This document shows positions 4,643 to 33,048 of a DNA stretch of 64,000 nucleotides, one piece after another. The DNA is from Rhodocollybia butyracea. Lineage: Eukaryota; Basidiomycota; Agaricomycetes; Agaricales; Omphalotaceae. Under the pieces are notes generated by a model. The model saw nothing but the letters and a program-made list of their open reading frames with translations, ran no database searches and was not told the DNA's origin. The position numbers were made by a program, and so were the translations under genes. Where the stretch lies: positions 124,001 through 188,000 of the forward strand of contig JADNRY010000105.1 of assembly GCA_015501585.1 (NCBI GenBank), in the 5' to 3' direction. Numbering within the stretch: the stretch's first letter is position 1; each line of letters begins with the position of its first letter.

Positions 4643-4725
4643 TTAAGGACTCCGATATCCAGGAAGGGAGCTGGTAACAGCATGGACTATAAATGCAAAA
4701 GCATCTGACCAGAACATTCCTTGAT
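4643..4725 (-). pseudogene. Target gene of the KDZ insertion, downstream part
   Basis: This minus-strand piece, read in the frame left by 33041-33313, encodes 24 codons (starting MFWSDAFAFIVHAV) and ends with TAA at 4643-4645. It lies directly outside the left end of the transposon and includes the TSD TCCTTGAT (4718-4725). The continuity of the frame across the empty site is the evidence that the two pieces were once one gene. Confidence 0.5.
4718..4725. repeat. Left 8-bp target site duplication of KDZ element
   Basis: TCCTTGAT sits immediately outside the left terminal repeat and is matched exactly at 33041-33048. Confidence 0.85.
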
Positions 4726-4748
4726 CACCTCCTTGTCCCACCTATCCC

Positions 4749-5410
4749 TAGAGATATCCACGAGTCCAGGTCTTTACAGGTAAGATCCGTGGGAAAACCT
4801 GCAAGTATGTGACCCGCGGATCCGTTTCCCACGGGTCCGGCGCAGGTCACAGGTCAGACTTTGGAGAATTCAGCTGACTTGTACAAGTAATGTAAACCCA
4901 TACATTTGTTAATTAGTGCTTGAAATTTACAGTACAAGCAACAATATTTGTCAGTTAACACTCAAAACTTACAGTAATTCATAGTATCATATGTATTATA
5001 GTACTTATCAAGTACTGGCACATATGTTTGAGGTTGTAGACAGCTCACGGCGATTGGGCGCTAATTTAAGCGCCCAATCGCCGTGAGCTGTCTACAACGT
5101 AAAACCTTTGTGTCAGTACATATTTATTTCATAACTAAGTATGAAATAATAGTAGACAGTTACAGTACAATGTTTTATAAATGGTATGTATCATAAAACA
5201 GGTAAGTACTTTATTAATGATTATTAGTACACTCTTTGGCATAAATACACAAATACCTGCAGGTACTTGCAAACTCGCAGGTAAATTACCTGCGAGTCAA
5301 AGATCCATTTCCCACGGATCTTCCGCAGGTCACAAGTCAAGGCTTTTGGGCCACAGGTACTTGCGCGCCGGATCTAAGTATACTTGGATCCGGACTCGTG
5401 GACATCTCTA
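4749..5410. mobile_element. hAT-type MITE, copy 1 (family 1)
   Basis: A 662-bp element has ends TAGAGATATCCACGAGTCC and, inverted, GGACTCGTGGACATCTCTA. It is flanked by the 8-bp duplication CCTATCCC (4741-4748 and 5411-5418). An 8-bp TSD and TAGAG-type ends are the hallmarks of hAT elements. It encodes nothing and contains a strong hairpin at 5033-5098. It sits in the left KDZ terminal repeat, and the right repeat shows the empty site. Confidence 0.85.
5033..5098. repeat. Long hairpin inside MITE copy 1
   Basis: Two perfect 30-bp arms (GTTGTAGACAGCTCACGGCG..) are separated by six bases. Closely related hairpins occur at the same relative place in two other MITE copies (31355-31418 and 32532-32597). 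Confidence 0.9.
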
Positions 5411-5722
5411 CCTATCCCTACCAATAAGAGAGAAAAATAGGTTTATATCCCCTCTTGTTGGTAAGGATAGCGGTTTAGGCCTACCTATGGCATACCACAC
5501 CTCCTACATAACCTTACTTAGCTATAATAATGATTTTCTTTACCAAGTAAGCGCCATTTGGGCGCTAATCCCATACGCTGGCAATATATTAGCTACATAT
5601 TCTCTCTAATAAGGGCTGTTTGAATGCTAGATCTGTACTGAGGGTGGCTGTACTGGCTGTTACAGCAAGATATGATGTATATTAGCCTGTCAAGGCTGTA
5701 AAGCACAATAACAAAAACATAA

Positions 5723-7870
5723 TTATTTGTTGGGAATATACTCATCCTCCTCATCCTCTTCTTCGCCCCTAGTCATCATCGCTACAGCTTTTCCCTTTCC
5801 TTTCCGATCCTTAGAGGCATGTGTTGCCAACCCCTTCTTCTTACTCTTCCTCTGAGAAGCTTTCTTAGACTTCAAACCTCCTTCCCCCTCACTCCTGCTC
5901 TCAACAGTCTTTGCTGTCTTTTGACATTTTCATTTATCTTTGGCACTTGTACCCTTGCTCTTTGAGGTACGAAAACTCTCTGCAGGCTCACCGTTCCCCT
6001 CATCAGCATCATCATCACTGTCAGCCTCCACTCATGCATGCTTTCTTTTCTTTTCCACTACTTCTCTTTTCTTTGAATCTTTTACAGCCTTTCCCATTTG
6101 CACATCATGCTTGGTGACAAAATCGCGATGCTCCTGGTTTGTCATTTTGCACCAGTATGCTGTACTGTCCATCCAGGCCTCGTAAAAGTGCAAGATGTCT
6201 TCAGTCTTTGTGAGCAATGTGGAGATACGTGGGGAATGTTGGTTGGTCAACCCTTCAAGGTGATCTTATAAGGAATGACAATATTTTCAGAGAACTTGCT
6301 GTAGGAAATGTTGAGGTTGTTCACTCCAGTAATTGTACCTACCGCAATCAAATTAGTTTCAAAATTACAGCCAAAAAAACCGAGACTCATGAAGCCCTTG
6401 CTGTATCATAAGGATGGTAGCCTTGGTCATGTTTGCGGCTGAAAGTTTCTTCCTCCCCACTGTAATTCAAGACATAAAAAGAATTGTTGTAAGCTGAAGG
6501 CGTACAGTTACTTACTTTCTTTTCTCTTGCAAACAAAGCTATCAAAGAGCTCAGGAAAGCCTAATATAGTGACGTTAAAGTGCTCCCTCAAAAAGTCATC
6601 AGTGGGTCCAGTACCAAAAAATCCTTTGGCCGTTTGAACATCAAAAGCACTGCGAGTGATCACACCCAAGGTGTTGGAGCCGCTATTCTCAAATGCATAG
6701 TTGCACTACAAACATTAGCATAACCCAACTACTGTCAAGAGAAATACAGACCTGATCTTGCAAAAGAGATAATGACTTTGAGGCAGCTTGAGACATTGCC
6801 TTAGGAGTTAGCCTATGAAGTTTGGAATTTGCCTTGTCCTTCTTCTCATCATGGTATCGCTGCCAGTATTCACCCATTTTCTCTGGATTGTCCCTTATCG
6901 CTTTGAGCACTGGGTTGTTGCGCAATGCCTCCTGGATGTCCAAGAGTTTGGCTCGGCTACCTTTTGTCTTGTCTAGTAGATCATTAGTCATAAAACGTAG
7001 AAAGAGAATACAAAGCAACTTACCCTCGTCATCTTGGCCCTTGAAATACAGCATAATGTTCCAATCTGACACCTCTTTCTTCAGCTTCATAAGCAAATTG
7101 AACAAAGCCAACTGCTTGACCCGCTCAACCTTCACATTGTTTTCCACCGCAATCTTCTCAAACTCCTGCTCAAGACCAAGCGTTGCCTTTTCAATAGCCA
7201 CACAAAGCTTCTTCTGTTTTGCCGCTTGACACTCAGCCTCCCCCATTACTGCTTTCTTCTTCTTCTTCTTGGAAGCAGCCTCGTTGTCCAAGCTTTCATC
7301 ACCTGAATCGTCACCGCTATCCTTCTGAGGCAGTACAGTACCACTGCCTGAGACTTCCTGATTGAATGCCAATAGGCCTTTCCTCCACAGAACCATATCC
7401 TCATCTTCACTGGCATCACCATGGCTAAGCCTTCACTATCCAATGTCTGCATCACAGTGAAGTGTTAGGATGTTCAGTCTCTCTGAGAGCTATTATCTGA
7501 AAACGCTGCACAAAAATGAAGATATAAAAAAACAAATACTCACATGAAATCACCAATCTTATCAATTAATGCCTGAGTTGCGCTGGAGACTGCTGCCTCA
7601 AGGTTAGCGTTAGCTTGAGAGGCATCTACAGGGTCATTTACCCTCATTTCTTTCCAGACCACAGACTTCATGGATAGGCAATGAAGAGACACCCAAAGTA
7701 TGCGCCAGAAATTTCTTGAGTTGCCATGATGCAAGTAAGCCAAACTGTCAAGCAGTGTGGTCAAAAGAAGCTCAGGAAGAAAGCTTAAGGAAATTTCAAC
7801 TTACCACTTACCTTCACCATCCCCCGTTGCTTTGAGCAGAACATCCATTGCATTGACAATCCAAAACATG
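5723..7870 (-). pseudogene. KDZ cargo gene A, unclassified, decayed
   Basis: A minus-strand multi-exon gene. From the N-terminus: MFWIVNAMDVLLKATGDGEG (7868 down), an acidic linker, a Lys run, a helical region (EKATLGLEQEFEKIAVENNV, about 7080-7180) and NPVLKAIRDNPEKMGEYWQR. Next come SGSNTLGVITRSAFDVQTAK, a GTAAGT-type intron near 6455-6515, and SAANMTKATILMIQQGL. A Lys-rich tail ends YIPNK at the stop (5723). A one-base frame slip in a T-run near 6390 and an in-frame TGA near 6255, where Trp would fit, break it. The basic tail suggests a nuclear or DNA-bound protein (inference). I know similar proteins only as transposon-associated hypothetical proteins of mushrooms. Confidence 0.55.
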
Positions 7871-7945
7871 GAAGTTAATGGTAAGACTTTGACATGTCAT
7901 ATGATAGTCATATGATATGTTTTCTGACAATTCAATTCCAGGAAC

Positions 7946-8291
7946 TAAAGATGGACATGAGTCCGGCTCTTTACAGGTGACCCACAGGTTTAACCCATGG
8001 GAATACCCGTCTGACCCGGATCCGGCGGATCCAGGTACCCATTCCCACGGGTGCAGGTCAGGTCACAGGTCAGCCCTTGGGGATTTTGAGACCTTATAAA
8101 GTATATTTTAAGTACCAATAGGTACCAATACCTACAAATACCTGCAGGTTGACCCACATGACCCGGATCCGCCAGATCCAGGTACCTGTTTCCCACGGGT
8201 CCGGGTCAGGTCACAGGTTGTGTTTTTTTGGGTGCAGGTACCTGTGCAGCAGGTCCAGGTTTACCAGGATCCAGACTCGTGTCCATCCTTA
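7946..8291. mobile_element. hAT-type MITE, copy 2 (family 2)
   Basis: A 346-bp non-coding element has ends TAAAGATGGACATGAGTCC and, inverted, CCAGACTCGTGTCCATCCTTA. The flanks CCAGGAAC (7938-7945) and CTAGGAAT (8292-8299) look like an aged 8-bp duplication, matching at six positions with two C/T differences. It lies between divergent cargo genes A and B. Confidence 0.7.
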
Positions 8292-8299
8292 CTAGGAAT

Positions 8300-9334
8300 T
8301 GACGCCAAAGTTCCTAGAACTTTGCCTAGTGTCATCAACAATGCTCATCTTGAAGCCATGGAGCATGCTTTAGCTGGCAAAAATTATGGAGAAAGTGAGC
8401 CTCATTTTTTATTTATTTATTTAGTACTTACATTACTTTGAATCCAGTCAAATCTGACTTCGCTGAAATCACTCATGCGGCTGTGTTGCCTGCCATCCGA
8501 GAGTGCAGAACTCAGCAGATCCGTTGGGAGCTTGACTATGGTGAGTTACATTGGCTATAGAGATGTCTGATAAATTCTATTAGATTTTATCTGTGATGGG
8601 TTGGGCGGTGCTGCTGCTGCATCTTCTGCAACTAGTGCACCTAAATCTTCTGCGGGGCAAGCATTCAGAATGCCTGCCTCTGTTCAACCTCCTGTGGGAT
8701 GTGCCTCTGCTGTCAAGAACTGCTGAACTTGAAACCCAAATGCTGGCAGTGTAACTATGATTGTTCCTCTTGCCCTCCCTCCTGTTGTTCCTGGCGCTAG
8801 GTTCACCATGCCCGATTTTGCTCCACACCCGTCCATCCTGGAATCCAACAACACTCCCGCATATGTTATCTTGTAACAAGTCTTCCAGTGTTTTTCACAC
8901 CTTTACAGAGGTAGAGAGCATTGCACCCCCCACCTTTCTGGATTGCCTCATTAAAACCTTCATGAATTTTGAGGCAGCTACAAGCCACTACAACAAATGC
9001 GTAGCCACTGGAGTGATTGCAATGCTAAGAGCAGATGAGACCCCAACTACTATCTACATTGTTACCAAGGGCTTCGTACCTGGTATCTTTCAAAAACGGT
9101 ACACATGCTATTTCATCTTGTCGACTTTCCTAACCAATTTGCTTTATAGCCAATGAAGTAAGAAGGATTGGTCCAAGCGAGGACTGGTGGGGTCTTCCAG
9201 TCGGGTCCAATGTAGAAGTAGCAGTAAATATCACTTTGAAGGTATTAAACCTAAGAAGTAGGCTGGAGTAGATAGAAATAATAACACAATGAGCTTAACA
9301 CTTAGCTTGGCACTTGTTGCACTTGCTGGCAGTG
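8300..9334 (+). pseudogene. KDZ cargo gene B, 5' part, unclassified
   Basis: A plus-strand coding-like series starts with IDAKVPRTLPSVINNAHLEA and, after a GT-AG intron (about 8394-8450), continues with FAEITHAAVLPAIRECRTQQ. A Ser/Ala-rich linker, TFLDCLIKTFMNFEAATSHY, and after another short intron DWWGLPVGSNVEVAV follow. Several frame changes and stops show decay. The reading frame stops at the insertion of the 2.9-kb element (9335) and resumes at 12264. Such proteins recur near mushroom transposons, but I cannot name the family. Confidence 0.5.
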
Positions 9335-10336
9335 TCGTAATCACACAATATAAGAGTCACAGAGTATAAGGCATCAATTGGGAGAAGGGAGAAGAGAGAG
9401 GGGGAATTAATTGATAAATCTACAAGTATGTAAAGGTACATAAATGTAACTGAGTTGCTAAGCTAATAAAATAGTGAAACTCATGCGGAGAATCAGAGAA
9501 AGGTACAGAACAGTCCGGTCAAAAGGAAAATACCTTCAGCCTTCCGGATTTCCGATGGGAAAGACAGAGCAGTGCAGGATACACACCTGACTAGAAAACA
9601 GAGCTTCCCACCTAGCTCAGTCAGTGGGGACAGAATGGAGCGACCAATTCCAAGCGTCACAGCTCAGGTGTGCTCCAACAACTATTGCCTACACCCTAGG
9701 AGGTACAGAGAAGCTTTGGGATAAGGAGGGGAATAATGGATAAAAGATAAATGGTAAGATCAAATAAATGATGGAATAAAACATGTGAGATAATAAGCAC
9801 TCAATTCTGAATTACTGTATATTTGTACGGCCTAGTGGTTTGGGCTGACGTAAGAGTAGGTGCAATGCGTCCTTGGGATACAATCCTGGAGAGAGGGGAG
9901 TGCGGGATGGCTGGAATGATGTAGGAGAAGTGGGAGGGACAAATACCCGGTATGTCCGGCAGTCCGATCAAATTAGCAATTTGCAATCATTTAATTTTTG
10001 GGATAGTGATGCGGCGTAAGGAGGTCGTGAAGGAGGAGACCGTCAGGAAATCAATGCAGACCATATAACATTGGGATAACATAAGAAACAGTGCTGGATA
10101 TGTGATGAACCTAAAGAAAGGGAAAAGACAGTGTAAGGATCTATGTTATGACTCGATCAATAGTCTCGTCCAAACCTTCACAGTACGTAACTCGGCAGTA
10201 AAAATGATAAGAGAAATTAATGAGATTATAGAGCAAGCCTTTCCGTTCGTTGAAACCGCTAGGCAAAAAATATATACTCAAACAACTAGGCTCAAGTAAA
10301 GTTAGTAACTAGTTTGTAATACGAAACTCACAGAAG

Positions 10337-10700
10337 TTATTATTTGGAGATAGCTCGACAAATAATAATAAGATTACCCTCGGAGATGGCTCGACAAGCA
10401 GTAATATGAATCAGAACTAATACTCGGAGATGGCTCGACAAGTAGTAGTGAGTATGGTGTCTAATACTCGGAGATAGCTCAACAAGTAATAGTGAGTGTG
10501 ATGTCTAATACTTGGAGATAGCTCAACAAGTAATAGGAAGTTGCAACTTGGAGATAGCTCAACAAGTGGCAATTAAAGAAGTATTCACTAGGAGATAGCT
10601 CAACAGGTGAATATTAGTGGATACAACTTGGAGTTAGCTCAACAAGATGTATAAATGTGTATTGTAGCTTGGAGATAGCTCAACAAGATACAATGAGTTG
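10337..10700. repeat. Array of nine covarying stem-loops
   Basis: Nine units about 40 bp apart share a core GGAGATAGCTCAACAAG. Flanking arms differ in sequence between units but stay complementary: TTATTATTTG/CAAATAATAA, TTGCAACTTG/CAAGTGGCAA, TATTCAC/GTGAATA, TTGTAGCTTG/CAAGATACAA. Most units have an outer stem, a one-base mismatch, a CTTG/CAAG stem, a GAG/CTC stem and an ATAG loop. Spacers are unrelated. Confidence 0.85.
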
Positions 10701-10824
10701 GTCTGGTGATTCACACAAGTGATAACAGCAAACAAGTGGGGGTTTGGATTTAAGAAAAATAATACATCTAACGTACATTGGTAAATCTAGACTACTTATA
10801 TACTGTGCAATGTGTACTAGTTAG

Positions 10825-11130
10825 GAAATGCTGCGGAATGACTAGATTTGAGTCATAACTGCGGAAATACTGCGGATGAGTCAGTCTGACTATGTAATGC
10901 TGTGCAATGACTAATATTGAGTCATGTATGCGGAACCGTAGTTGACTCAGATATCTGGCTGTGCAATGACTGATATTGAGTCATTGATGTAAAGAGGCTA
11001 TGCAATGATGTCATAGCTGTGGAGCAGTGATGTGATATCATAACTGCGGAGCAATGGAATGACATCATGATTGTGGAGTAGCAAGATGACATCATAGTTG
11101 TGGAGCTAGAATGATGTCATGACTGTGCAG
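10825..11130. repeat. Second array of short inverted repeats
   Basis: A run of units of the form TGCGGA/GTGCAATGACT..AGTCAT and, further right, ATGATGTCAT or AATGACATCAT flanked by CTGTGGAG or CTGCGGAG. At least eight units are visible, with irregular spacing. Confidence 0.7.
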
Positions 11131-12263
11131 ACTGTGCAGTGACTGTTAAAGATCATTCTGGTGTTCTGGAAGAATGTGTGCAGCATTAACCCAAATGGTG
11201 TTGAATAACTAATGAATGTAAAATGTTAAGTAGAAGTATTAATGATAGTGTTCATAGTTGGTTACAGAAGAAAAAAGATTGGGTGTATAGGATTTAGATC
11301 CGGGTCATAACAATCTAGGCGGATCCTTATTGCGACGGGTTGATGTACTATCTTGAATAGAAGCGGCGGAACGTTTCCGACGGGATGATTCGATGATAGT
11401 GTACTCGATCTGGGAATAGCGACAACGTGAAACGTACGAGCGGAATCCGGAAGTGTAATAGAATGAACCATACGAGTAAGCCTAGGAACGGAATGAGTTT
11501 CCGACTCTAAGGGTAGGACCCGCTGGGCGCAAGCGTTTTCGAAGACGAGTTATTGGCGGCGGAAAGTCGAGCGGAAGCTGACTTGATAGAGCGCAATGAA
11601 TCGGAATCGAAGAGAGTATATTGCGGAGTGAAGAAATAGAGTAAAAGAAACTGATAAGTCGGGAAATGAGTCGGTAACTGGGGGGTTGTTTCAATATAGC
11701 AAATCTAGAGTATCAGAGATATCGACGAGTATTTAAGAGTAAGGAGGATATACAGGGTCGTGAAAAGTACGTAGACAATCAGTTAAGGTGAAAGGGAAAG
11801 TACTACAAGGGACGAGCGGGAACGGAAATAATACAAGGGCATACCTCGGAATGGAACAAGGCAAGTGGAGAGACGGAAAGGTAGTGAGTACAACTTGTGG
11901 AAGAGTTAGTAATAGGTAATTATGGCGGCTGTGATTGCGCCATCGAGAAGAAGTCGGGAGCGGAACTAACGGGATAAGTTGGGAGAGCGGAACCGACGGA
12001 ATGAAATGAGAATAGAGCGGGAGTACGGGGCATGACAGACAGTCACTAGCACAGTAGAACGAATATACATGCACATAATTACAGAATAGGAAGGGAATGG
12101 AGTAAGTGTAGTAACAAACAAGTAGATAATAAGTAATAGTAAACAATGGAAGTGAGACAAAATAGACTGTAAGTAAGGAATGATTTAATAGTAGAGGATG
12201 AAGTGATGCAGTATAAACTGGCATATAAGTGAACATTGAAGTAAAGTAATAGTAAATGTAACA

Positions 12264-12463
12264 AGTGGAGCACTAGCTACCGCTAGGGCAGCTAGCACTA
12301 CCACACCAACATGTGCTCATACAAGGCCTCAACTACCATGGCGGCGAAGTTAGGTCTGAAGGTACGCTTGCCCAAGCCAACACTATATTCCAACGTTGGA
12401 GGGATTGTGGGCATGTCAAAGTCCTCTTATGGGGGCGCCCCTTTGAATCTTGAACTCAGGTAG
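12264..12463 (+). pseudogene. KDZ cargo gene B, 3' part
   Basis: The continuation of cargo gene B after the 2.9-kb insertion reads SGALATARAASTTTPTC, then in a shifted frame MAAKLGLKVRLPKPTLYSNV and a Gly-rich end GGAPLNLELR to a TAG at 12461-12463. The one-base frame change between the two pieces is further decay. Confidence 0.5.
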
Positions 12464-12711
12464 AACTGCGAAGCTGTAGTATATAGTGTCAATCTAGTAG
12501 TATTGATTTTTGATACCTTTGAAATACAAACAAATTTATCTAGGTTTGAGCTGCATACAAACGTTCACAAGCATAGTTAGGGTTTAGCAACTTCACTGTT
12601 CCTGTTATCAATAGCATTACTGATACCAATGCGCTGCTTTCCTTGGCAACACTTATAAATGCCCGGGGGGATACCCATTCCAATGCTTAGTCCACTGGCT
12701 TAAACAATAGG
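12464..12711. other. Short gap inside the KDZ element
   Basis: AT-rich DNA between cargo gene B and the next minus-strand fragment. Nothing recognised. Confidence 0.4.
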
Positions 12712-13600
12712 TCAGCCCAAAAGATCCCAGCTTGATGCAACACAAAACACACTTGATTTAGCTCCAGCAATTGTTCTCGAGATGTTCCTCTCGGTTTCTG
12801 TAAGTGATACGCAAGTTAGAATCAAAGATAAGCCATGAGCCATAGATACGCACTTTAGATAATACTTTGCATCGGAGCCTTTCCTGCTGGCATTAGCCTC
12901 AGCTTTTTCCTGCACAGGCATTGAGATCCTTTTCCTAATGCCAGTTTGATTAAAAAAAAGAGGGCCCCCAGTAAATGGAAAGTGGAATTGAACTCTGAAA
13001 TCTGCCGGTGCTCAGACTCTCTGTATTTGCTGTGTCTTCCGGGTGCAATATAAAGAAGGAGGTGGAAAGTAAGGGTATAAGTAAGGAAGTATGATTAGTA
13101 TAAGTATATATGGCTATCAGCAATTAAGGATGGACACAAGTCTGGATCCCGGCAAACCCAGACCTGCCGCACAGGTACCTGGGCCAAAAAAAAGGCGACC
13201 TGTGACCTGACCCGGACCCGTGGGAAACAGGTACCTGGCAATATCTACCCTTATAATGTACATATACAGTACATTAGAAGGTCCAGAAATCCCCAACCTG
13301 TGACCTGACCCGCACCTGTGGGAATGGGTACCTGGATCCGCCGGATCCGGGTCAGGCGGGTATTCCCACGGGTTAAACCTGCGGGTCACCCGTAAAGAGC
13401 CAGACTCGTGTCCATCCTTATCAGCAATAAAGAAAACTTACCAGATTCTATACTTGCAACTAGACCTTGCACCGCTAGTTTTACAATTTGCAGCCTTTTC
13501 CTCTGGTGTAAGTTTGGATTTGGCAATTGCAGAAGCAGTCTGACATTGAGGCATAGATGGCAGAAGAGATTTGTGAAAAAAATTGGGTGGTTTGACAAAA
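12712..13600 (-). pseudogene. Fragments of a small minus-strand cargo gene
   Basis: Two coding-like pieces are separated by a MITE and AT-rich DNA. The right one (about 13430-13545) reads AIAKSKLTPEEKAANCKTSG and ends at a GTAAGT donor. The left one (12712-12921) reads EKAEANASRKGSDAKYYLK, a probable short intron, then TETERNISRTIAGAKSS. Both are rich in Ala, Lys and Glu. I cannot name the protein or prove the pieces belong together. Confidence 0.3.
13125..13420. mobile_element. hAT-type MITE, copy 3 (family 2)
   Basis: A 296-bp element has ends TAAGGATGGACACAAGTCTGG and, inverted, CCAGACTCGTGTCCATCCTTA. It is flanked by a perfect 8-bp duplication TCAGCAAT (13117-13124 and 13421-13428). Non-coding; it shares its G/C-rich internal blocks (for example CCCACGGGTTAAACC) with copy 2. 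Confidence 0.85.
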
Positions 13601-13960: not shown

Positions 13961-14545
13961 AATTACACACTAATCATCATATTTCAAAAGGTCTAACCCT
14001 GCCTCCCACATATTCTTGCGATGCTCAAGCCAAGTTTGAAGTTGCTAAGGGCTTGCGGATTCCCGGAACTACTTATCAGAAAGAAAGCCGTTATGGTAAT
14101 AGTGAACTAATCCTGCAGGAAGAAAGAACACCATAGAGTGGTGACGCTCATGAGGCACAATAGAGGAATTGGTGTGAGGCACAGCTGCAGAAGAGACATA
14201 GATAGCAGACCCTGGTGGAAACTCAGCAACTATGCTGAGGTCCCAAGCTATGAAGTGGCCTCCAGACTTATGGTCAAACTTTCCACCAGAGAAGATGGCG
14301 CACATTGAAAAGAGCCAGTTCCAGAAGTTGCTATGGTAGAGGGTGCCGCTTTTATGCATATTAAAGTGACTTGAAGCAGGATAGCAGCTATGAGGAAAGC
14401 TACATTTGATTTCTGGATTGCTGGCCTTGACTATCTTTCCATCAAGGCTAGTGTAAATGGCATGGAGTTTCGGAAAGAGTGCAAGTAAGCCCTCTGAGAA
14501 AATAAGTGAGCAAGTAAACTATTGAGTAAGTAAGAACTCCACCAC
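13961..14545 (-). pseudogene. TET/JBP-type 2OG-Fe(II) dioxygenase, catalytic part, decayed
   Basis: The minus-strand C-terminal half reads EGLLALFPKLHAIYTSLDGK, then YHSNFWNWLFSMCAIFSGGK, FDHKSGGHFIAWDLSIVAEF, PPGSAIYVSSAAVPHTNSS and ERHHSMVFFLPAGL. This is the double-stranded beta-helix pattern of the TET/JBP oxygenases tied to fungal KDZ transposons. The first iron-binding motif, normally HxD, reads HSN (codons at 14327-14335). A distal His (VPHTNSS) is present. After GFLSDK a TAG, SASP, another TAG, then QLQTWLEHRKNMWEAGLDLL match the usual C-terminus, so two nonsense codons have formed. Active relatives oxidise methylated bases in DNA; this copy cannot be functional. Confidence 0.75.
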
Positions 14546-14779
14546 ATTCTGTGAAGCCTTTATAAAGGACACTGATAACCCTCAGGGGAGCCTTTACAAA
14601 GGCCAGTGATAAGGCTTCAACCTCTCTATTTGGGTGTTGCCGGCTCTCTGTGGCTCAGGCGGCAGCCCGGCAAGGTTGATAGATTAGATTGCTACCATAT
14701 AGGGAAAAGAAAAAAAATGATATGGGCTAGATAGGCGCCTAAAATCGAGGAAAAATCGTAAAAAATGCCGAAAATATTC
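14546..14779 (+). repeat. Left TIR of the 8.6-kb element
   Basis: Matches 22939-23171 inverted. It contains two CCTTTATAAAGG/CCTTTACAAAGG mini-palindromes near the outer end and the block GCCGGCTCTCTGTGGCTCAG. Confidence 0.85.
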
Positions 14780-14893
14780 TAGGTGGCATGCGGGGGGCGC
14801 ATGAGCAGGGGCGTGGGAAACAACTTGGGAAGATGATTTTGGCTAGGTAGGTGACTAAAATCGCGAAGAAAATCGTAAAAAATGCGGAATATA

Positions 14894-15974: not shown

Positions 15975-16053
15975 CATTGGCTCAAAATTCCATGTTTAAT
16001 CCCCAAAAATGCGAATTTTAAGGGAAAACATGCAAAGATCAATAGGTACATGT

Positions 16054-22175: not shown

Positions 22176-22938
22176 TGGGAAATGTGGTTTGAGTTATACA
22201 AACTGTACGATACATGATATTGCAGATAAAAGCTTGTAAAATTGGAGTATCATTGGCAATTGTGAATGGAAAGAGGACAAAGTACCTGAAATATAGTTAG
22301 CATGAACAATCTTGAGTTAAACATCTGGATAACGTACCATAGGCAACAGCCTCCATTCTGAAATGTCCTCCCTCTTCCTTCTTTTCATCACTATCTCTTC
22401 TTTCTTGAATTCATCTCTTGATTTATCCCCCAAGGTCTGCAGATGCAGCGAAGCACAAGAAGCAAAAATGAAGCTGGAATAAGTGTTAGTATAGCCTAAA
22501 ATAAGTCTCACCTATGGCACATAGTACTTCTAGAGAGACATGACAATGAACAACAACTTTACAGAGCAATAATCAACGAATCAATGGTACTATGAGTGAT
22601 GTGGCAAACGAGCGCCCAGTGGCGCTCAATCCTAAAAAGTCATATTAGTAAACTCTCCTGTGTCAGCTTGAAAACCATTGGCTGGTGCTTATGCCCAATG
22701 GGGCTGTCGCTTTTCTGGGCATAAACCAGCATCAGAATTGAGAGTGTTCCGTTTGCCATAGCCAGGTCAGCATCAAAATGTTCTAATGCGCTCCAGGGTA
22801 CATTTGGAGCCAAAACTGCTGATATTTAGGTTAGATATTGTATAAAATGAATGTCTTCTTCCTACCCTTCTTTTTTCCCTTCCTTAAACTTGAAAAACTT
22901 GAAAACTACAGAATCTCCACAGACATAAACCATGAGCC
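22176..22938. other. Right subterminal region of the 8.6-kb element
   Basis: No certain gene. A minus-strand piece at 22317-22480 (SRDEFKKEEIVMKRRKRED) may be an exon remnant. Short hairpins occur (GAGCGCCCAGTGGCGCTC near 22610; a TGCCCA/TGGGCA inverted pair near 22690-22720). Confidence 0.4.
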
Positions 22939-23171
22939 GAATATTTTCGGCATTTTTCATGATTTTTCCTCGATTTTGGGCGCCTATCTAGCCCATATCA
23001 AATTTTTTTTTTCCTTATATGATAGCAATCTAATCTATCAGTCTTGCTGGGCTGCCGCCTGAGCCATAGAGAGCCGGCAACACCCAAATAGAGAGGTCAA
23101 AGCCTTATTGCTGGCCTTTGTAAAGGCTCCCCTGAGGGTTATCGGTGTCCTTTACAAAGGCTTCACCGAAT
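22939..23171 (-). repeat. Right TIR of the 8.6-kb element
   Basis: Inverted match of 14546-14779 with scattered substitutions and an A/T-run length change. Confidence 0.85.
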
Positions 23172-23770
23172 CAGCTGAGAACTCACGATCCATGAAGCGA
23201 GCAATACACTGTATGACTGGGTTGCCAAGAATAATTTGGAGCAATCAAGCATTATGTGGGCTATTAATGTATTCTGCAGGCCTGACCCTTCCGCCGCCAA
23301 AGCTGTACCCAACGCCAATAGTTGCATAGTCGTGACATCAATGATGTAGGAGGTTTTTGGGAAGGCAGAGATTTTGGTATAGCCACTCCATGAGCATATT
23401 GCACATTTCCAGAAGGGCCTCCCAGTCAGGATCCTGGGGGTGAGTATAAAGGGCCATTAGGCAATGTCCTTCAGCACTGCAGATGATCTGCGTTTTCCTA
23501 AATAAATAACAAAAGTTGTGAGGAAAAAGAAAGCCTTCAGGATATAATTACGCATGAGCTATAGTCCCTCTTGATATAGAATAAGCCAGATAACCGGAAG
23601 ACATCTGGGCTAGAAAGGATCCAGCAGGTAGGGGTTTGCGTCTGGAATCCTACCTAGGAGTTGGTACGGAAAGGAAGCAGGCCTTCAATGATAACAGAGA
23701 GCACCTCTCAAACATGTTGACGGACATACACATTTACAGTAGAGCCACTGGCTGCTAGCCCGTCCTCTCT
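23172..23770 (-). pseudogene. TET/JBP-type dioxygenase, N-terminal part, decayed
   Basis: The minus-strand 5' half of the oxygenase split by the 8.6-kb element. It reads SSGYLAYSISRGTIAHA, a GT-AG intron (about 23497-23550), KTQIICSAEGHCLMALYTHP, DWEALLEMCNMLMEWLYQ, a TGA, then YATIGVGYSFGGGRVRPAEY, a second TGA, and NPVIQCIARFMDREFSA at the junction. GYSFGGGxxxP is typical of this family. Frame and sense resume at 14512 with EGLLALFPKLHAIY if a predicted intron at the junction is spliced. The gene faces away from the KDZ transposase, so the two were probably divergently transcribed. Confidence 0.7.
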
Positions 23771-23819
23771 ATCTTGGGCACACTTCTCCCTTCAGGCAGC
23801 TTTACTTTTTAGCTTCTTC

Positions 23820-26412
23820 TTGGTGGCAGAGAGGCCTTTGTATTGGTCAAGGCCAAGCCAATGGCTTTCTCAATTTTGCAGAACAACAGGAGTAGCAGCA
23901 AGTAAGTCAGAGAGAGGTAGTATAGAGACTGGTAGAGAAGAGGACCGAGAAGATACACCAGAGGCTGCCAACACCTCTGCGGAATTAAAGAAAAAGGCAC
24001 CTGTCACATCCCCACAGCCAAGGTGGCGTTGGGCAGAGAAATGCTACATCTATGCTGTAAGAAGAAAAGAAAGTTTAGAGACGAACCTTGAGAGAATGTT
24101 GGCAGCGGCTCTTTCTCCTCACCTCTCTTGCATTTCCAAGTCATGGCGGTGGTTTAGTGGCAAAAGAGAGTGAGCGGCTGAAGTATGTTTTGACTGTGGG
24201 ATTACATGACTTTGTAAATCATGCAGTTATTGAGGCAGCGTGTATTTGCTCCAATACCATGGCCACCAACACTGCTCGATTTAACTGCAGCTGTGGCAGG
24301 GCCTCGAATCGTGGTACTCATCCCAGGCCATCTCACTTATACTTATGCGGTAATTGGCTTGGTTTGTACTGGTATGTGAAAGGCGCTAGAAAACAACTTA
24401 ACAAATACAAGACCGCACCTAACCAGACTATCAATTTGTTTAAAGGGAGTGAGGCTGGGTTGTCAAAGATTCCCCAAAGAAAGTTAAGATATCAAATGTA
24501 AGATGATACACCAGCCAGTGTAGTGAAACAACTGAACTAGCGTAGTGCGACAAGGTCTAGTAAGTTCTATGAACTGAACTAGCATAGACTATTGTCTAAG
24601 TTGTGCGCGTATGTCCGACCAAAAACCCAAATAACCAAATAACCGTGTGTGTGTGTGTGTCCAACAATAACCAAAACCAAAACCAATACAATGCAACTAG
24701 GACACTCCTGGGCAAACTCTGGCTCCAGCTAGCATAACACTGTAACATCCCTGACCAAACTCTGGGTCAAGCTACAAAACTGTGAGTGAACTTAATCACT
24801 AGGAACTAGTACCACAATCTTAGTGGCTCACTAATACTCGTTAAGAGCTAGCTAAGGGACCCTCACTCTGGAGCCAAATAATTCCTTACTAGAAGCCATC
24901 CCCTCTAAGGAAGCAACTAGATTTATGCAAAGGAGAGAGTGAACTTAATCACTAGGAACTTGTACCACAATCTTAGTGGCTCACTAATACTCGTTAAGAG
25001 CTAGCTAAGGAACCCTCACTCTGGAGCCGAATAATTCCTTACTAGAAGCTGTCCCCTCTAAGGAAGCAACTAGATTCACACAAAAGATCTAACTCAATCT
25101 TAAGCGGGCACAAAAGCTGTTACGAAGCTTCTATTACACCAATCCAAACTTTATAAGATAGAATATAATATTAACTTTGAAGAGAAAGCTAGACTCCATA
25201 CGCGCCCTAAACAAACACCCAGTTATGGTGTTTGATTGACTCGGTACTTTTAAACCAGGGGGAATTAAGAGGACTAGCAGACTCCGGCGGTGAAGAGACC
25301 TTCAACTTTGTCACAACGGGTGGTTATGAGAGGTAGCAAGATAACTTGATTTATGAGATAAATACATCATGCTTATATACTGGGTCTTTACTAGTTTAAT
25401 ACAAAAAGAGATGAAACAGAGTCGGAGAGAAACGGAGTAAGATGGAAATTTGAGAAAGAGAGGAATTTAGCTAAGAAAGGAAACTCTAGCCCAGACATAT
25501 TGTACATTTATCTAGAAAACCATCCCAATTTAGGTACGGTCCCGATTTGGGTATCAAAGTAAAAGAAATTAAAATGTGTTAACATATTCTGGTCCTCGCG
25601 GAATCTTGTATGACAAATAACTGTTCCTTCCATCAGATGTTTCATGGCTCCACACAGGTACGTGTCCGCATGTTTATCCTCGAGGTTGTCTGGTAGGTTT
25701 GAGCAAGTCTAGCTCAATCCCTTTAAGATAATAACATCTCCCAGCGATAGTTCACTAGGCTTGCTAGCTTTGAGTAGATACCAAGAACCCCAGAGATATG
25801 TGTGCTAGCACAATGCTCAGAGCTGTGGCTTGGCGATAGCCTATCCACCGTAAGATCATCGGGTTTATTGCAGTAGGACTTTCCTAGTCAATAGTCAGCC
25901 GATAATCAAATATCAAATTCGCCTAGCTTAATCATCTAGCAGCTGTGCCGCATTGCAACCCAACTAGTCACCGTAACATGTTGATGTCTCTGGGCACCTC
26001 GAGTATCCTCGCTAGTTTAGTATCAGACTACGCTTGTGGGCATATCATCACGACTAGCTGAGTATTATCGCTGAGATACTAAGTGTTAGCTACAGTTATC
26101 ACGTTTGGGCTCCGTATAACCCTCTTATTGTATGTGTAGCACATATACATTGTCAAAATATATGGCTACAAGCCTAAGCGCAAAATCTGCGTATTGGCGG
26201 ACCTGTTCATGGATGCTAAGGGCCAGCTGAAAGCCAAAGACACTTTGGGGGAAATTCCATTCAAGTTCTTTGGCACACGGATATCTGGGAGCTCAAATGC
26301 AAAGGAGAAGCATCGAGACTTCAATCTGAGGCAGAATCTACGCCGGATGTTATCCTTCAGCAATCATTTGGTGCTGACTCTCACAACTTTGATATGCCGA
26401 TGGGGTGCAATT
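23820..26412 (+). pseudogene. Probable 5' part of the KDZ transposase gene, split by an LTR-like repeat
   Basis: A plus-strand coding-like segment (ESERLKYVLTVGLHDFVNHA, later HLTYTYA) is interrupted at GCGG (24347). It resumes at 26197 in frame after removal of the 24351-26196 repeat: ADLFMDAKGQLKAKDTLGEI, then IPFKFFGTRISGSSNAKEKH and DFNLRQNLRRMLSFSNH. A MITE interrupts it again at 26413. It lies upstream of, and in line with, the recognisable transposase. I cannot match this part to a domain. Frames change in 23820-24250. Confidence 0.45.
24351..26196. mobile_element. LTR-like repeat R, copy 1
   Basis: A 1846-bp non-coding insert runs from TAATTGGCTTGGTTTG to CAAAATCTGCGTATTG and is flanked by GCGG on both sides (24347-24350, 26197-26200). 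A second copy is at 28935-30863. Copy 1 has a tandem duplication of about 160 bp (GTGAACTTAATCACTAGGAA units at about 24784 and 24948) and a short GT microsatellite near 24645. Ends are not canonical TG..CA. It may be a solo LTR or a non-autonomous DNA element; I cannot decide. Confidence 0.75.
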
Positions 26413-27204
26413 TAAAGATGTCCATGAGTCCAAGTGCCACCCAAGTACCCACAGGTAGGAGCCATGGGAATACTCGCAGGTATCACTACCTGCAGATCCG
26501 GGTATCACTTCAAAAAAAATTAAACTACTTGCAGGTACTTGCGGGTACTTGCAAGAAGCCAAAAGCACCTTGTGGGAGGGCAAGAATATTTTTTTCGCAC
26601 CAATAAAGGCTGAAATATTCTTTCCCTCCCACAAGGTGCTTTTGGCTTCTTGCAAGTACCTGCAAGTAGCTTAATTTTTTTTTGAACTGATACCCGTGAC
26701 CTGCCGTAATCTGTGGGAAACGGATATTTGGATCTGCGGGTAGTGATACCTGCGAGTATTAGGATGCCATAGGATTCATAGGTCACCTAGTTTGCTTTAG
26801 ACCACTCTGGGGTCACCTAGGCAAAAATGGCTTTTCCTGATGTGAATATAGTCTCTCTTTAGCTTCTAGACTTGTATCAGTAAAGGACTACTGTTCTCTA
26901 CCTATATCATGCTCTATTCTATGCACTAGGCACCTTCAGAGTATCTCACACTCATACCTTGCATGTAGTAACCATTTTATTATTATTGTAAGTACTAAAT
27001 ACTTGCAGATACTCACAAGTATCTTGTGAGTACCTGTGTTGGCTGGGATCCGCAAGTATTTGCAAGTACTTGTGTTAAACTACCTGCAGATCCGGGTATC
27101 CATTTCCCACGGATACATACGGGTCATGGGTAGCCCCTTGAGGCCCACAAGTACCTGTGCAATGGATCCAGATACTACTTGACCCAGACTCATGGACATC
27201 TTTA
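26413..27204. mobile_element. hAT-type MITE copy 4, composite
   Basis: The outer ends match family 1/2 (TAAAGATGTCCATGAGTCC and inverted GGACATCTTTA). No matching 8-bp duplication is seen (GTGCAATT left, GCACTGCG right). Inside are a large hairpin (26494-26690) and a block of about 90 bp (26765-26850) that is the inverted copy of the KDZ transposase 3' end at 32340-32425. Two MITEs probably fused or rearranged here. Confidence 0.65.
26494..26690. repeat. Large hairpin inside MITE copy 4
   Basis: Arms of about 85-95 bp (GGGTATCA..TTAA..CTACTTGCAGGTACTTGC..CAAAAGCACCTTGTGGGAGGG against its inverted copy) surround about 25-30 bases. The left arm has one extra ten-base repeat. Confidence 0.85.
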
Positions 27205-28934
27205 GCACTGCGATTATGGCAATAGTTGAGGAGCAGAGCTGGCGGATGACAACAGAGATTTGGACTGGGAAGAAGCTGAAGAAGAGAAGCTGAAAAAAGA
27301 TATGAGGAAAAATGCTGGTTTTACTGCTAGAAAATACCAGGATTACCGCACTCATCATGATAGAACTGAATTGGCTTGGAAACATTGGGAGGATCAGGCA
27401 GAGCTCATGGCTGATGCATACATGAAGTATTCACTTCATTCCAAGGGTAGCCCATGCACTTTGGAACAGCCCGGTGAACAGGAGGCTGGGCAGGAGATTG
27501 GCATTGAAGTAATTGATATCTTTTGTGAGTTTTATTCTCTTTTTTTTCCATTTGTACTGGTTCTAACAAATAGACAGCTACCAAATATAAACTCATTCCC
27601 TGTCAATCGAGCAACAAATGGGTATTGCAGTCTCTTTTATGTGCAGGTCTTATCCCTACTGCCCTGCTAGCCCATACATATGCTGTGACTATACATACCA
27701 TGGAATTCTACCATACACTTTTCTGCCGCTGCCTGAAGGTCGGAATCCAGCCTTTTGCAAAAACACTCTGCAATCTTTCTGGCAATGTGTTCAAGCCATA
27801 CCTATCTACTCAGCTCTCAACTGCTTTTGACATCTTCGTTAACCTTCTTGTTAGCATCTGTCAGCATGTTAACAAGGCTCTTGGGTGGGATGGAAAGGAT
27901 TGGCGACTGCTTAACTCCTGTCCCTGCCTGCCAGTATTGTCTCAAGGAGGATCCGCAATTGGAGGTATGAATGATAGTGCAGTGTGACGGAAATGATTCT
28001 TTATGCCAGGCGGAACATCAAGGAGATGCTGCTCTAGAGCCTTTGAAGGAAGGGGAGGAAGAAGGTGCGCCAAGGCTAGGGCCGCTGAAAGAAAGAAAAG
28101 ATAGGCGTATCCAGGGAGGAACCTACTTTCTTTCAAAGGAGGAGGTTGATGTTTGGGATCAAGATAGTTGGGGGAACCTTCCTGTAGAGGAGCCGCCTGA
28201 GGGCAGCCAAAAACCATGCAGGAGCAACTTTGGGAGCAAGGGTGGTGTGAGGAGCGCTGGAGTAACATGAAAGACTGTAACACTGCCTGGGCAGTTGGGA
28301 GGTTTTATGAGTGGGGGTGGTTTGTGCTTCTGTGTCAACATATGTTTCTGCTAGTTGCTTGTGATATGATTTGAAGCGGTGATGAGTGAGTATGAATCTT
28401 TCTTCACTGTGATTAGTATGATAACCAATTGTTCCAGGAGTAAATATCCCCTCTCATGCTTGCACCAATACATGTCTGCTGAAAAAGAGGAACACCTCAA
28501 CAACAACAAAGGCCCTCCAACAGGGAACCTCAGTTGCGCTTATGACTGCAGATGTAAGCTGGGGAAGAAGGTTAATTGTAGCCCTCTGCAGGTGCTGGCC
28601 TTATGGTCAATGTTTCTCCCCATGATTGTGCTAATGCATGGGTATGCTCATGAGTGCCGCTGCCAGATACTCTTTCTCATGCTGTACATTGCTGGCATTG
28701 GGTTGGAAGATGGCAAATGCTGCAAACATTTCTTCAGCATCATCAATGCACTTGCAGGAGTCACTTGACACATGTCTATCTTCCACTGATACAAGCCATT
28801 GCTGAAGTGGCCTATGCTCATGACAATCTTGAAGCTTTCCCAAATCTCAGCTGGTTCATCTTCAATAATTACCATCAAGCTCTTGAAATCATAGCTACCT
28901 GGAACACCCTTTCTTGAAGTATGGTGGAGGGCGG

Positions 28935-30863
28935 TAATTGGCTTGGTTTGTACTGGTATGTGAAAGGCGCTAGAAATCAACCTAACAAATACAAGACCGC
29001 ACCTAACCAGACTATCAATTTGTTTAAAGGGAGCGAGGCTGGGTTGTCAAAGATTCCCCAAAGAAAGTTAAGATATTGAATGTAAGATGATACACCAGCC
29101 AGTGTAGTGAAACAACTGAACTAGCGTAGTGCGACAAGGTCTAGTAAGTTCTATGAACTGAACTAGCATAGACTATTGTCTAAGTTGTGCATGTATGTCT
29201 GACCGAAAACCCAAATAACCAAATGACCATGTGTGTGTGTGTGTGTGTGTGTGTGTCCAACGATAACCAAAACCAAAACCAATACAATGCAACTAGGACA
29301 CTCCTGGGCAAACTCTGGCTCCAGCTAGCATAACACTGTAACATCCCTGACCAAACTCTGGGTCAAGCTACAAAACTGTGAGTGAACTTAATCACTAGGA
29401 ACTAGTACCACAATCTTAGTGGCTCACTAATACTCGTTAAGAGCTAGCTAAGGAACCCTCACTCTGGAGCCGAATAATTCCTTACTAGAAGCCGTCCCCT
29501 CTAAGGAAGCAACTAGATTCACACAAAAGATCTAACTCAATCTCAAGCGGGCGCAAAAGCTGTTACAAAGCTTCTATTACACCAATCCAAACTTTATAAG
29601 ATAGAATATAATATTAACTTAGAAGAGAAAGCTAGACTCTGTACGTGCCCTAAACAAACGCCCAGTTATGGTGTTTGATTGACTCGGTACTTTTAAACCA
29701 GGGGGAATTAAGAGGACTAGCAGACTCCGTCAGTGAAGAGACCTTCGACTTTGTCACAACAGGTGGTTATGAGAGGTGGCAAGATAACTTGATTTATGAG
29801 ATAAATACATCATGCTTATATACTGGGTCTTTACTAGTTTAATACAAAAAGAGATGAAACAGAGTCGGAGAGAAACGGAGTAAGATGGAAATTTGAGAAA
29901 GAGAGGAATTTAGCTAAGAAAGGAAACTCTAGCCCAGACATATTGTACATTTATCTAGAAAACCGTCCCAATTTAGGTACGGTCCCGATTTGGGTATCAA
30001 AGTAAAAGAAATTAAAATGTGTTAACATATTCTGGTCCTTGCGGAATCTTGTATGGCAAATAACTGTTCCTTCCATCAGATGTTTCATGGCTCCACACAG
30101 GTACATGTCCGCATGTTTATCCTCAAGGTTGTCTGGTAGGTTTGAGCAAACGGTCCAGAATCCCTTTACAATAATAACATCTCCCAACAATAGTTCACTA
30201 GGCTTGCTAGCTTTGAGTAGATACCAAGAACCCCAGAGATATGTGTGCTAGCATAATGCTCAGAGCTCGTGGATTGTCAGAGCTGTGGCTTGGCGATAGC
30301 CTATCCACCGTAAGATCATCGGGTTTATTGCAGTAGGACTTTCCTAGTCAATAGTCAGCCGATAATCAAATATCAAATTCGCCTAGCTTAATCATCTAGC
30401 AGCTGTGCCGCATTGCAACCCAACTAGTCATCGTAACATGTTAAGATCTTCCTTCCAGTCCGTAAGGCGATCGTAGATCTTATCCTCCGGCGTCCGTCTT
30501 TCCACTAGCGCAGTATGAGGATTGCATTCCCCTTCTGATGCCTTCCCTGGGTAATGCCACCGCCAGTACTCATCCCACTTTGAGACATCCAAGTATGCGG
30601 ATTCATGTATGCATTGGGGTGGGTAGAACTAGACTGACAATCTAGTGTTGATGTCTCTGGGCACCTCGAGTATCCTTGCTAGTTTAGTATCAGACTACGC
30701 TTGTGGGCATATTGTCACAACTAACTGAGTATTATCGCTGAGATACTAAGTGTTAGCTACAGTTATCACGTTTGGGCTCCGTATAACCCTCTTATTGTAT
30801 GTGTAGCGCATATACATTGTCAAAATATATGGCTACAAGCCTAAGCGCAAAATCTGTGTATTA
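28935..30863. mobile_element. LTR-like repeat R, copy 2
   Basis: A 1929-bp copy of 24351-26196 in the same orientation, again flanked by GCGG (28931-28934, 30864-30867). It lacks the tandem duplication of copy 1 but has a longer GT run (about 29232-29256). It also has an extra segment of about 200 bp at 30441-30643. Confidence 0.8.
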
Positions 30864-31001
30864 GCGGTATCTCATCAAACAACTTCTTTGCCTGGCTAGA
30901 GGAGGAGGCGGAATATCTACAAAGCCTTTCTTGAACTCCACCAACAGAAACGCTGAAGATGGAGTACTATCTTAAGCTGGAGGTGTTGTCTGCTTGCAAA
31001 G

Positions 31002-31713
31002 TAGAGGTGTCCATGAGTCCAGATCCAAGTATACTTGGATCCGGCGCGCAAGTACTTGTGGCACAAAAGGGCTGACTTCTGACCTGCACGGGATCCGTGG
31101 GAAACGGATCCCTGACTCGCAAGTCTTTGCACAAGTAAACTCACAAGTACTTGCACTACGGGTCACCACAGGTACTTGCAGGTATACTCACAAGTACCTG
31201 AACAATATCACCAAGTTAATTACATAGTATTGAAAGACTTACTTGTGTACAGATTTTTTAATACATAGTACTCACAAAATATTGCACTGTACATGTTCAC
31301 TACTATTTCACACTCTGTAATGAAGCAAATATGAGCTGCCACAAAGGCTTTGCATTGTAGACAGCTCACGGCGATTGAGCGCTAAATTTAGCGCCCAATC
31401 TCCGTGAGCTGTCTACAACCTCAAACCTGTGTGCCAGTACTTGATAAGTACTATAATAAATATGATGCTATTAACTAGCCTCTGTAAGTATTGATCACTA
31501 ATTAGCAAATGTATGATTTTATATTGCTTGCACAAGTCACGCAATTACTTGCAAGTACTTGTGGGTCAGCCGAAATTTCCCAAGGTCTGACTTGTGACCT
31601 GCATCAGACCCGTGGGAAACAGATCCTAGGATCCCCAAGTCACATACTTGCAGGTTTTCCCACGGGTCTTACCTGCAAGTACCTGGGAAGACCTGGACTC
31701 ATGGACATCTCTA
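31002..31713. mobile_element. hAT-type MITE, copy 5 (family 1)
   Basis: A 712-bp element has ends TAGAGGTGTCCATGAGTCC and, inverted, GGACTCATGGACATCTCTA, with the duplication TTGCAAAG/TTGTAAAG (30994-31001, 31714-31721; one C/T difference). Deleting it with one TSD joins LEVLSACK to ACLVKATAAW in the transposase frame. Hairpin at 31355-31418. Confidence 0.85.
31355..31418. repeat. Hairpin inside MITE copy 5
   Basis: Same hairpin as 5033-5098 (TTGTAGACAGCTCACGG arms) with two arm mismatches. Confidence 0.85.
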
Positions 31714-32424
31714 TTGTAAAGCCTGTCTTGTAAAAGCAACTGCAGCATGGGTCTCATATAAGCCAAACAAGAGGGACCAGACAAACACCGTTGAGACAAA
31801 GCGTAGGAACAAACAGGAGAACAAATGGAAGCTTATTGTGGATATCCAGGCCTTTGAGTCAAAACTCAACATCAAACAGCGATGGACGGAAAGCTGTGAA
31901 GAATGGGCCTCTGCGAAGATCTTGGTAAAGGAGAGAGTTTATAGGCAGGCTCTAGATAAGTTGGAGGGGCTGTTGATTGTGGGAATGTTTGAGATGTCAA
32001 GACTGAATGTAGCCGGCACTGGTATGTTATTCATGAGTTCCTGTTACTGAAAATCTAACATAGCCTCAAGGGTACAAGATGCGGAAGCACTTGGCAGCTG
32101 CTTTAAAGTCCCACTTGAAATCTATTCAAGCCACAATCGAGGCCTACAACACAGCAGCAGCTGCACTGAATCCTCCACGTCAAGCGGTATCTTGGGAGGA
32201 AATTATTGAGTTCTCATTTGTGTCTGAATTGACATCTTGTGGGATGCAAGGGTGGATGTTCAAGAGAGAGAAAATGGGCAACTCAAAAGAACTGGCTGCT
32301 CATGCAGCAATTCTTCAAGTTGCTTTGTGCAGAGGACTAGCTCCATCAGGAAAAGCTGTTTTTGCCTAGGTGACCCCAGAGTGGCCTAAAGCAAACTAGG
32401 TGACCTATGAATCCTATGGCATCC

Positions 32425-32496
32425 TAGGAATTTGGGCTTGTCCCTTGCCAGTCACTAAGGCCTTAGTGACTGGCAAGGGACAAGCCCAAATTCCTA
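32425..32496. repeat. Perfect 72-bp palindrome without spacer
   Basis: Two 36-bp arms (TAGGAATTTGGGCTTGTCCC..) are exactly complementary and meet at 32460/32461 (AAGG|CCTT). It lies directly left of a truncated MITE. Confidence 0.95.
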
Positions 32497-32875
32497 ATAT
32501 AAGTTATTGAGTGCTGGTACACAGATATTAGGTTGTAGACAGCTCACGGCGTTTGGGCGCTTAAATTGGCGCCTAAACACCGTGAGCTGTCTACAACTCA
32601 AAACTTAGATGTGAGTACATATTTACTTCATAACATAGTATGAAATTGTTGTAAACAAGTTAAGTACATGGTTTTGTTAGCATTATATACTCTACAATCA
32701 ATGTATGCAAGTAAGTAATGGTAAATACTTCTGTAACACTTGTTTATTAAATGAAACACAAGTACTTGCAAGTCAGTGACCCGTTTCCCACGGGTCACAA
32801 GTCAGGCCATTTAGGCTGCAAGTACTTGCGCTCCGGATCCAAGTATACTTGGATCCGGACTCGTGGACATCTCTA
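32497..32875. mobile_element. hAT-type MITE copy 6, left end missing
   Basis: The right end GGATCCGGACTCGTGGACATCTCTA (family 1) and the internal hairpin (32532-32597) are present, but no left terminus is found. The left border coincides with the 72-bp palindrome. CTAAACAG, its probable right target copy, follows at 32876. Confidence 0.75.
32532..32597. repeat. Hairpin inside MITE copy 6
   Basis: Same hairpin as 5033-5098. Sequence changes in the arms (GTTTGGGCGC against GCGCCTAAAC) mostly keep pairing through G-T pairs. Confidence 0.85.
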
Positions 32876-33040
32876 CTAAACAGCGCTTACTTGCAAAGAA
32901 AATCACTAGTATAGATAAGTAAGGTTATGTAAGAGGTGTGGTATGCCATAGGTAGGCCTAAACTGTTATCCTTACCAACAAGAGGGGATATAAAACCATT
33001 TTTCCCTCTTATTGGTAGGGATAGGTGGGACAAGGAGGTG
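32876..33040 (-). repeat. Right terminal inverted repeat of KDZ element
   Basis: Read on the minus strand it starts CACCTCCTTGTCCCACC and follows the left repeat through ATGGCATACCACACCTC and ACATAACCTTACTTA. Its inner end is cut by the right end of another MITE at 32875. Confidence 0.85.
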
Positions 33041-33048
33041 TCCTTGAT
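33041..33048. repeat. Right 8-bp target site duplication of KDZ element
   Basis: TCCTTGAT follows the right terminal repeat directly and matches 4718-4725 exactly. Confidence 0.85.

Follow-up and report, generated by a model that had tools for sequence, protein, structure and literature searches.

The element and its ends

The window analysed here is a 64,000-nucleotide stretch of Rhodocollybia butyracea DNA (positions 124001–188000 of contig C58, in an assembly of 95.6 Mb and 1381 contigs). It contains what is very probably one multi-gene DNA transposon of the KDZ superfamily, now 28,315 bp long, in which a broken KDZ transposase gene lies divergent from the remains of a gene for a TET/JBP-fold protein (Table 1). 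The original prediction of a single element with terminal inverted repeats (TIRs), an 8 bp target site duplication (TSD), divergent TET and KDZ genes and at least one further gene was borne out.

The two copies of the TSD are identical in all eight positions, in keeping with a KDZ transposon. The chance of an exact 8 bp match at one defined place is about 1 in 65,000 (calculated by hand). When bases 4600–5600 were compared by blastn with the reverse complement of 32300–33150, 134 of 145 positions matched (92%, E value 8e-57), and the outermost 25 bp of one end recur inverted at the other without a mismatch (25 of 25). The left TIR is broken at 4749 by a 662 bp miniature inverted-repeat transposable element (MITE), M1. 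With M1 skipped, the ends align over approximately 159 bp, in agreement with the predicted inverted ends of about 160 bp and again in keeping with a KDZ transposon.

Genes of the element

The KDZ domain (PF18758) was found at 28370–28765 with a score of 62.2 bits against a cut-off of 26.6, and a second match at 27971–28267 (16.3 bits) fell under the cut-off. Further pieces of the transposase were recovered using P0018, a 929 aa protein of Gymnopus androsaceus, as the query. The predicted KDZ transposase is thus present but as separate pieces, and no counterpart of P0018 residues 799–929 was found in the window element. With stops, nested insertions and no C-terminus, the transposase is not intact and the copy is inactive. 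For the cysteine cluster (CxC) at the N-terminus of KDZ proteins, the CxC1 profile scored 17.5 bits on P0018, the sole protein scored, below the cut-off of 26.9.

The TET/JBP gene survives as two minus-strand pieces 8.7 kb apart with four stops altogether, and with the transposase on the plus strand the divergent arrangement foreseen from the sequence was recovered. Profile-profile comparison with TETs of the type of L045, a canonical-looking TET in the same genome, gave a probability of 100 (E value 2.5e-41) over 167 columns. A related copy on contig C434, described below, provided a TET protein for modelling, and a model built from 30 sequences reached a predicted local distance difference test (pLDDT) score of 79.3; an earlier model, based on 14 sequences, scored 45.9 and was set aside as too poor. 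The best-matching solved structures were CcTET, NgTET and TET2, with CcTET of Coprinopsis cinerea (PDB 7vpn, 7w5p and 8jkk) the best of these at 12–16% identity over the aligned residues. As modelled, the protein has the TET-like double-stranded beta-helix fold. Fourteen relatives were found among public proteins, one of which (P0001, from R. butyracea) is 99% like the C434 TET; a further public protein, P0015, points to the same species. In G. androsaceus, three TET proteins and three transposases come from contigs of matching sizes (22669, 29457 and 328232), which suggests that the two genes are linked there also.

Two cargo genes, A and B, had been proposed, and of these only A stood as a gene. 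No Pfam family above cut-off was found in gene A. A search with gene A of C434 gave 12 matches spread over 11 contigs, and on nine of these a TET match lies on the same strand, 2.8–6.7 kb away. On all nine, KDZ is found on the opposite strand beyond TET, in seven by Pfam and in two (C1300 and C456) by the N-terminus of P0018. For the remaining two contigs, the genome TET search returned no match on C9 and only one, approximately 43 kb off, on C637. Gene A recurs as a third component of the element, and a fixed core of three genes (A, TET and KDZ) is seen at nine loci. No Pfam family above cut-off was found in region B either; it is DNA conserved between copies with no established product.

Related copies in the genome

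Eleven matches to the right TIR were found over seven contigs, four of which carry element genes, namely those of the window, C434, C1300 and C750. On this evidence we rejected the reading of the TIRs as free dispersed repeats with no transposase between them, which would have told against the prediction. The C434 copy (C434:103603–111170) has both ends, 96% identical over 81 bp and 7.57 kb apart, and shares collinear stretches with the window that comprise gene A, TET, the C-terminal half of the transposase and the right TIR. Its transposase retains the equivalent of P0018 residues 486–924 with four stops, and homologues of this copy bear PF18758. In C1300 the left end is present and the sequence is collinear with the window blocks in 5410–27407, near the end of that contig. 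In C750 the transposase C-terminus lies beside a single end. On C462, 3.2 kb separates a pair of ends that differ from each other, and only one end is present on C521 and at C1094:50390. A search for TET and KDZ that covered C462 and C521 gave no match on either.

A 54 bp inverted repeat near the TET of contig C478 was discarded as a TIR of this family because its sequence differs. C1094 also includes KDZ, TET and gene A within different long inverted repeats (L069:1–195 and L070:1080–1281), which are 88% identical over 203 columns and 10.6 kb apart within the stretch covered, the left end lying beyond it. Genome-wide, at least 133 TET-like and at least 144 KDZ exon matches were counted in the 95.6 Mb, a large expansion of both genes.

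Nested insertions and ancestral length

Nested insertions were called using the C434 and C1300 copies as guides, and for I3, I5 and I6 the borders are placed to within tens of bases. M1 has at least 41 matches in the genome, itself included (40 of 324 candidates were scored). The TIR of I4 also has 41 genome matches, its own included, and no TSD was recognised at the I4 borders. The nine insertions M1, M2, I3, M3, I4, I5, M4, I6 and M5 total 18,353 bp, or 18,885 bp with M6, leaving 9,962 or 9,430 bp, respectively (all by hand arithmetic). An ancestor of 9.4–10 kb agrees with the earlier estimate of about 9.8 kb after removal of some 18.5 kb.

Within I4, there is a near-perfect 2.2 kb palindrome (95%) at 14891–17110, and a run of plus-strand open frames at 17213–22214 is probably one multi-exon gene. 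No Pfam family above cut-off was found in the scanned pieces of that gene.

Table 1. Features of the KDZ element and the insertions it contains (positions in the window)
Feature	Position	Strand	Details
TSD, left copy	4718–4725		TCCTTGAT
Left TIR, outer part	4726–4748	+	CACCTCCTTGTCCCACCTATCCC; cut by M1
M1, MITE	4749–5410		TSD CCTATCCC, 8/8
Left TIR, remainder	5411–5554	+	first 8 bp are the second TSD copy of M1
Gene A, main open frame	6692–7432	-	247 aa; 7022–7327 matches gene A of C434
M2, MITE	7946–8291		flanking 8-mers match 6/8
Region B ('gene B')	8305–13122		blocks around I3 collinear with C1300 (67–73%) and C434 (61–63%)
I3	9154–12305		approximately 3.15 kb; C1300 and C434 lack it; no class given
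M3, MITE	13125–13420		TSD TCAGCAAT, 8/8
TET/JBP exon 2, catalytic half	13982–14494	-	2 stops; H-x-N in place of H-x-D
I4	14546–23171		8.6 kb element splitting the TET gene; 234 bp TIRs, 92%
TET/JBP exon 1	23185–23493	-	2 stops; I4 lies between it and exon 2
I5, high-copy repeat	24347–26196		95% like I6
KDZ transposase pseudogene	26178–32334	+	in pieces, several with stops; residues 26–798 of P0018
M4, MITE	26413–27204		TIRs match; no clear TSD
I6	28931–30847		second copy of the I5 repeat; within the transposase gene
M5, M1-type MITE	31002–31713		TSD 7/8 (TTGCAAAG/TTGTAAAG)
M6, MITE-derived	32344–32875		532 bp; replaces transposase C-terminus, adjoins right TIR; left end undefined
Right TIR	32883–33040	-	approximately 158 bp
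TSD, right copy	33041–33048		TCCTTGAT

The iron-binding motif and CpG decay

Unlike CcTET, the TET proteins of the window, C434 and C1300 lack the aspartate of the iron-binding HxD motif. All three have H-S-N, with neither Asp nor Glu as the ligand, and keep the distal histidine; the profile comparison places HxN and HxD in identical columns. The motif was read in 30 loci excised from the 133 TET matches, and HxD was found in 26, the other four being the three copies above and L058 (H-V-N). Thirteen of the 14 public proteins were aligned here, of which 11 have HxD and two have HxN, namely P0001, the C434 protein, and P0006 (H-N-N). The base before the Asp or Asn codon is C at nine loci, four of which have Asn, and another base at 21 loci, none of which has Asn (one-sided Fisher test, hand-computed, 0.005; the loci are non-independent, several being near-identical, and the Asn of the window and C1300 may be one shared event). 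As Asn is seen only after a preceding C, recurrent CpG decay is the best reading of the change from Asp, and the loss of the catalytic residue fits decay at a CpG site overlapping the active-site codon.

In the TET tree the window and C1300 (support 91/90) are joined by P0002, which has HSD (90/83), and C434 groups with C478, which has HCD (84/74). Provided that these moderate supports can be trusted, this subtree includes at least two origins of Asn. P0006 (HNN) lies beside P0007 (HND) and represents a further such change.

The pattern of CpG loss was examined by aligning the copies. Of 170 C1300 CpGs that align with the window, the window retains 29 and has TpG or CpA at 96; conversely, C1300 has TpG or CpA at 32 of 74 window CpGs. 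The corresponding changes in the GpC control were 64 of 308 and 45 of 270. The C434 comparison was similar, with 29 of 193 CpGs kept in the window and 87 found as TpG or CpA (reverse, 20 of 75; GpC control, 60 of 331 and 37 of 301). Between C434 and C1300, 48 of 176 C434 CpGs are kept and 64 are TpG or CpA. The observed/expected CpG ratio in the old blocks of the window copy is 0.34 for TET and 0.23 for KDZ, compared with 0.73 for the C434 element, 0.71 for the C1300 element, 0.85 for a neighbouring retrotransposon and 0.64 for the whole window. This depletion would fit methylation.

An alternative is that the HxN protein is not dead, and that a KDZ subfamily retains a TET-like protein with no carboxylate iron ligand that binds DNA or has an altered activity. 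H-S-N is common to the window, C1300 and C434, and no stop interrupts the TET frames of C434 and C1300, the latter matched only to residue 234 of 282 before running off frame. Over 127 codons, the window and C1300 genes differ by 1.22 substitutions per synonymous site (dS) and 0.15 per non-synonymous site (dN), a ratio of 0.12 with Asn in both, and if Asn is older than their split then selection continued after it. Most of the remaining TET pairs are saturated at synonymous sites. However, the pairwise ratio also averages over time preceding the change from Asp, and the positions of P0002 and C478 in the tree would give Asn at least two origins. HxN also occurs with different middle residues in L058 and P0006, and in each of the four genomic cases the codon is preceded by C, as CpG decay predicts. 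We consider a functional HxN protein unlikely, and the specific form of the idea, that purifying selection has kept the TET of a Rhodocollybia KDZ subfamily after the loss of Asp in a role that would be free of 5-methylcytosine oxidation, slightly less likely still. By the decay reading, the presumed anti-silencing enzyme of a transposon seems to lose its catalytic residue via CpG decay in its own active-site codon.

Interpretation of the locus

Taken together, the locus is very probably the inactive remnant of a multi-gene KDZ DNA transposon with a TET/JBP-fold gene, decayed at its CpGs and later filled with insertions. When active, the transposase would have worked on the long TIRs, placing the element in an 8 bp staggered site and so giving rise to the TSD. 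The TET protein, encoded head to head with it, would have oxidised 5-methylcytosine and so relieved silencing. After insertion, most CpGs were lost by C-to-T change and the reading frames were lost, and the copy gained at least nine nested insertions, or ten if M6 is counted. The copy itself was presumably methylated and silenced.

Several observations weigh against this reading. A TSD was sought at the other two copies with paired ends, C434 and C462, and none was found, so that the window has the only one of three. C434 is without the N-terminal part of the transposase, and because of this no intact copy of exactly the window family was read. The Pfam family Tet_JBP hit only one of the 14 aligned relatives at an E value of 1 or less (best 0.01, below cut-off), and a search of the genome gave four matches, none above cut-off and none within the window; L045 itself scored an E value of 1.7e-5, still under the curated cut-off. 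Searches of PDB sequences found no TET, the one chain returned (E value 1.6) being unrelated. Membership in the TET group therefore rests on the profile comparison and the fold, and the other four models of the C434 TET were poorer (pLDDT 50–61). The C1300 and C434 elements share the Asn at the higher CpG ratios given above. The depletion is also not specific to the element, since the neighbouring genes at 41516–45492 have a ratio of 0.19, and according to Kojima 2025 (PMC12730594) no hypermutation is detected in Agaricomycotina. The loss of the catalytic Asp, the CpG decay and the absence of a TSD at C434 and C462 had no place in the original prediction.

It had also been proposed that the element interrupts a host gene, and that removal of the element and one TSD restores the target frame. 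The joined flanks do read as described, with a minus-strand frame open for 120 codons that runs through ..LRYFHQG and then 24 codons to a stop; frames of at least 120 codons occurred in 3.4% of 2000 first-order Markov simulations. However, among 5.8 billion proteins there was no candidate sharing three five-residue words with the 120 aa product, and in this genome the joined flanks had no match across the junction and no empty site was found, which also counts against the element as a whole. Given the lack of a homologue or junction match and the simulated frequency, the restored frame was rejected as evidence for a host gene, and an interrupted gene at this site appears unlikely. A further rival reading, in which each end comes from an insertion of its own and the intervening 28 kb is transposon debris clustered by chance, is very improbable. 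Nine or ten insertions do form a dense nest here, and the paired ends at C434 and C462 have no TSD, but the window ends match at 92% and are flanked by a perfect TSD, and collinearity with C434 extends over the non-nested blocks from one TIR to the other.

Comparison with known elements

Complete TET-carrying fungal transposons have been characterised (Kojima 2025, PMC12730594), and complete KDZ elements have been delimited both there and in Cryptococcus neoformans (PMC12810828), so that the view that KDZ elements are rarely delimited, stated with the prediction, is outdated. Like the elements of Kojima 2025, the window element combines a KDZ transposase and TET/JBP in one bounded unit with CA..TG ends. 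Kyakuja-1_LB and Kyakuja-2_LB are described there as having 7 bp TSDs, CA..TG ends and no TIRs, whereas the window element has an 8 bp TSD and TIRs of approximately 159 bp and so does not conform to Kyakuja as described. Zisupton is given 8 bp TSDs and TIRs in the same account, as found here, but this is insufficient for assignment. The TETs described by Kojima 2025 have HxD or HxE, in contrast to the HxN found here. Of the 46 C. cinerea TET genes, 32 are cited in that paper as likely active, and inactive TET copies are therefore already known. Rhodocollybia is not named in its main text.

The C. neoformans elements KDZ1, KDZ2 and KDZ3, which were shown to move in a transposon trap (PMC12810828), are approximately 11, 9.2 and 10 kb long with TIRs of 241, 139 and 169 bp, and have TSDs of 8 bp (KDZ1) or 4–8 bp (KDZ2 and KDZ3). 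Their size class and the structure of their ends are the same as those deduced for the ancestor of the window element. KDZ and CxC1 domains are mentioned for them in the part of the paper drawn on here, which mentions no TET gene. In Pleurotus, intact KDZ transposons are reported to be preceded by CxC2 clusters (PMC7641404). The window element is a well-preserved case of a known kind, cleanly bounded, with ends unlike those of the two Laccaria Kyakuja families. For the Omphalotaceae it provides a KDZ element that carries a TET gene and has exact boundaries, long TIRs and an 8 bp TSD. Among the literature matches listed, no title concerned KDZ elements of R. butyracea.

Neighbouring features

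Approximately 0.38 kb from the right end of the KDZ element lies a retrotransposon (33425–38483), which we take to be Copia from its sequence. It has identical long terminal repeats (LTRs) of 290 bp and a stop-free frame of 1349 codons, and the identity of the LTRs suggests a recent insertion. The minus-strand frames at 41516–45492 encode a repetitive protein beside a P-loop protein, presumably WD40-like and NACHT-like, respectively, judging from their motifs. Further along, four related genes (46877–47530, 48427–49135, 55407–56072 and 62868–63587) share 77–83% DNA identity, and the start of their products is presumably F-box-like.

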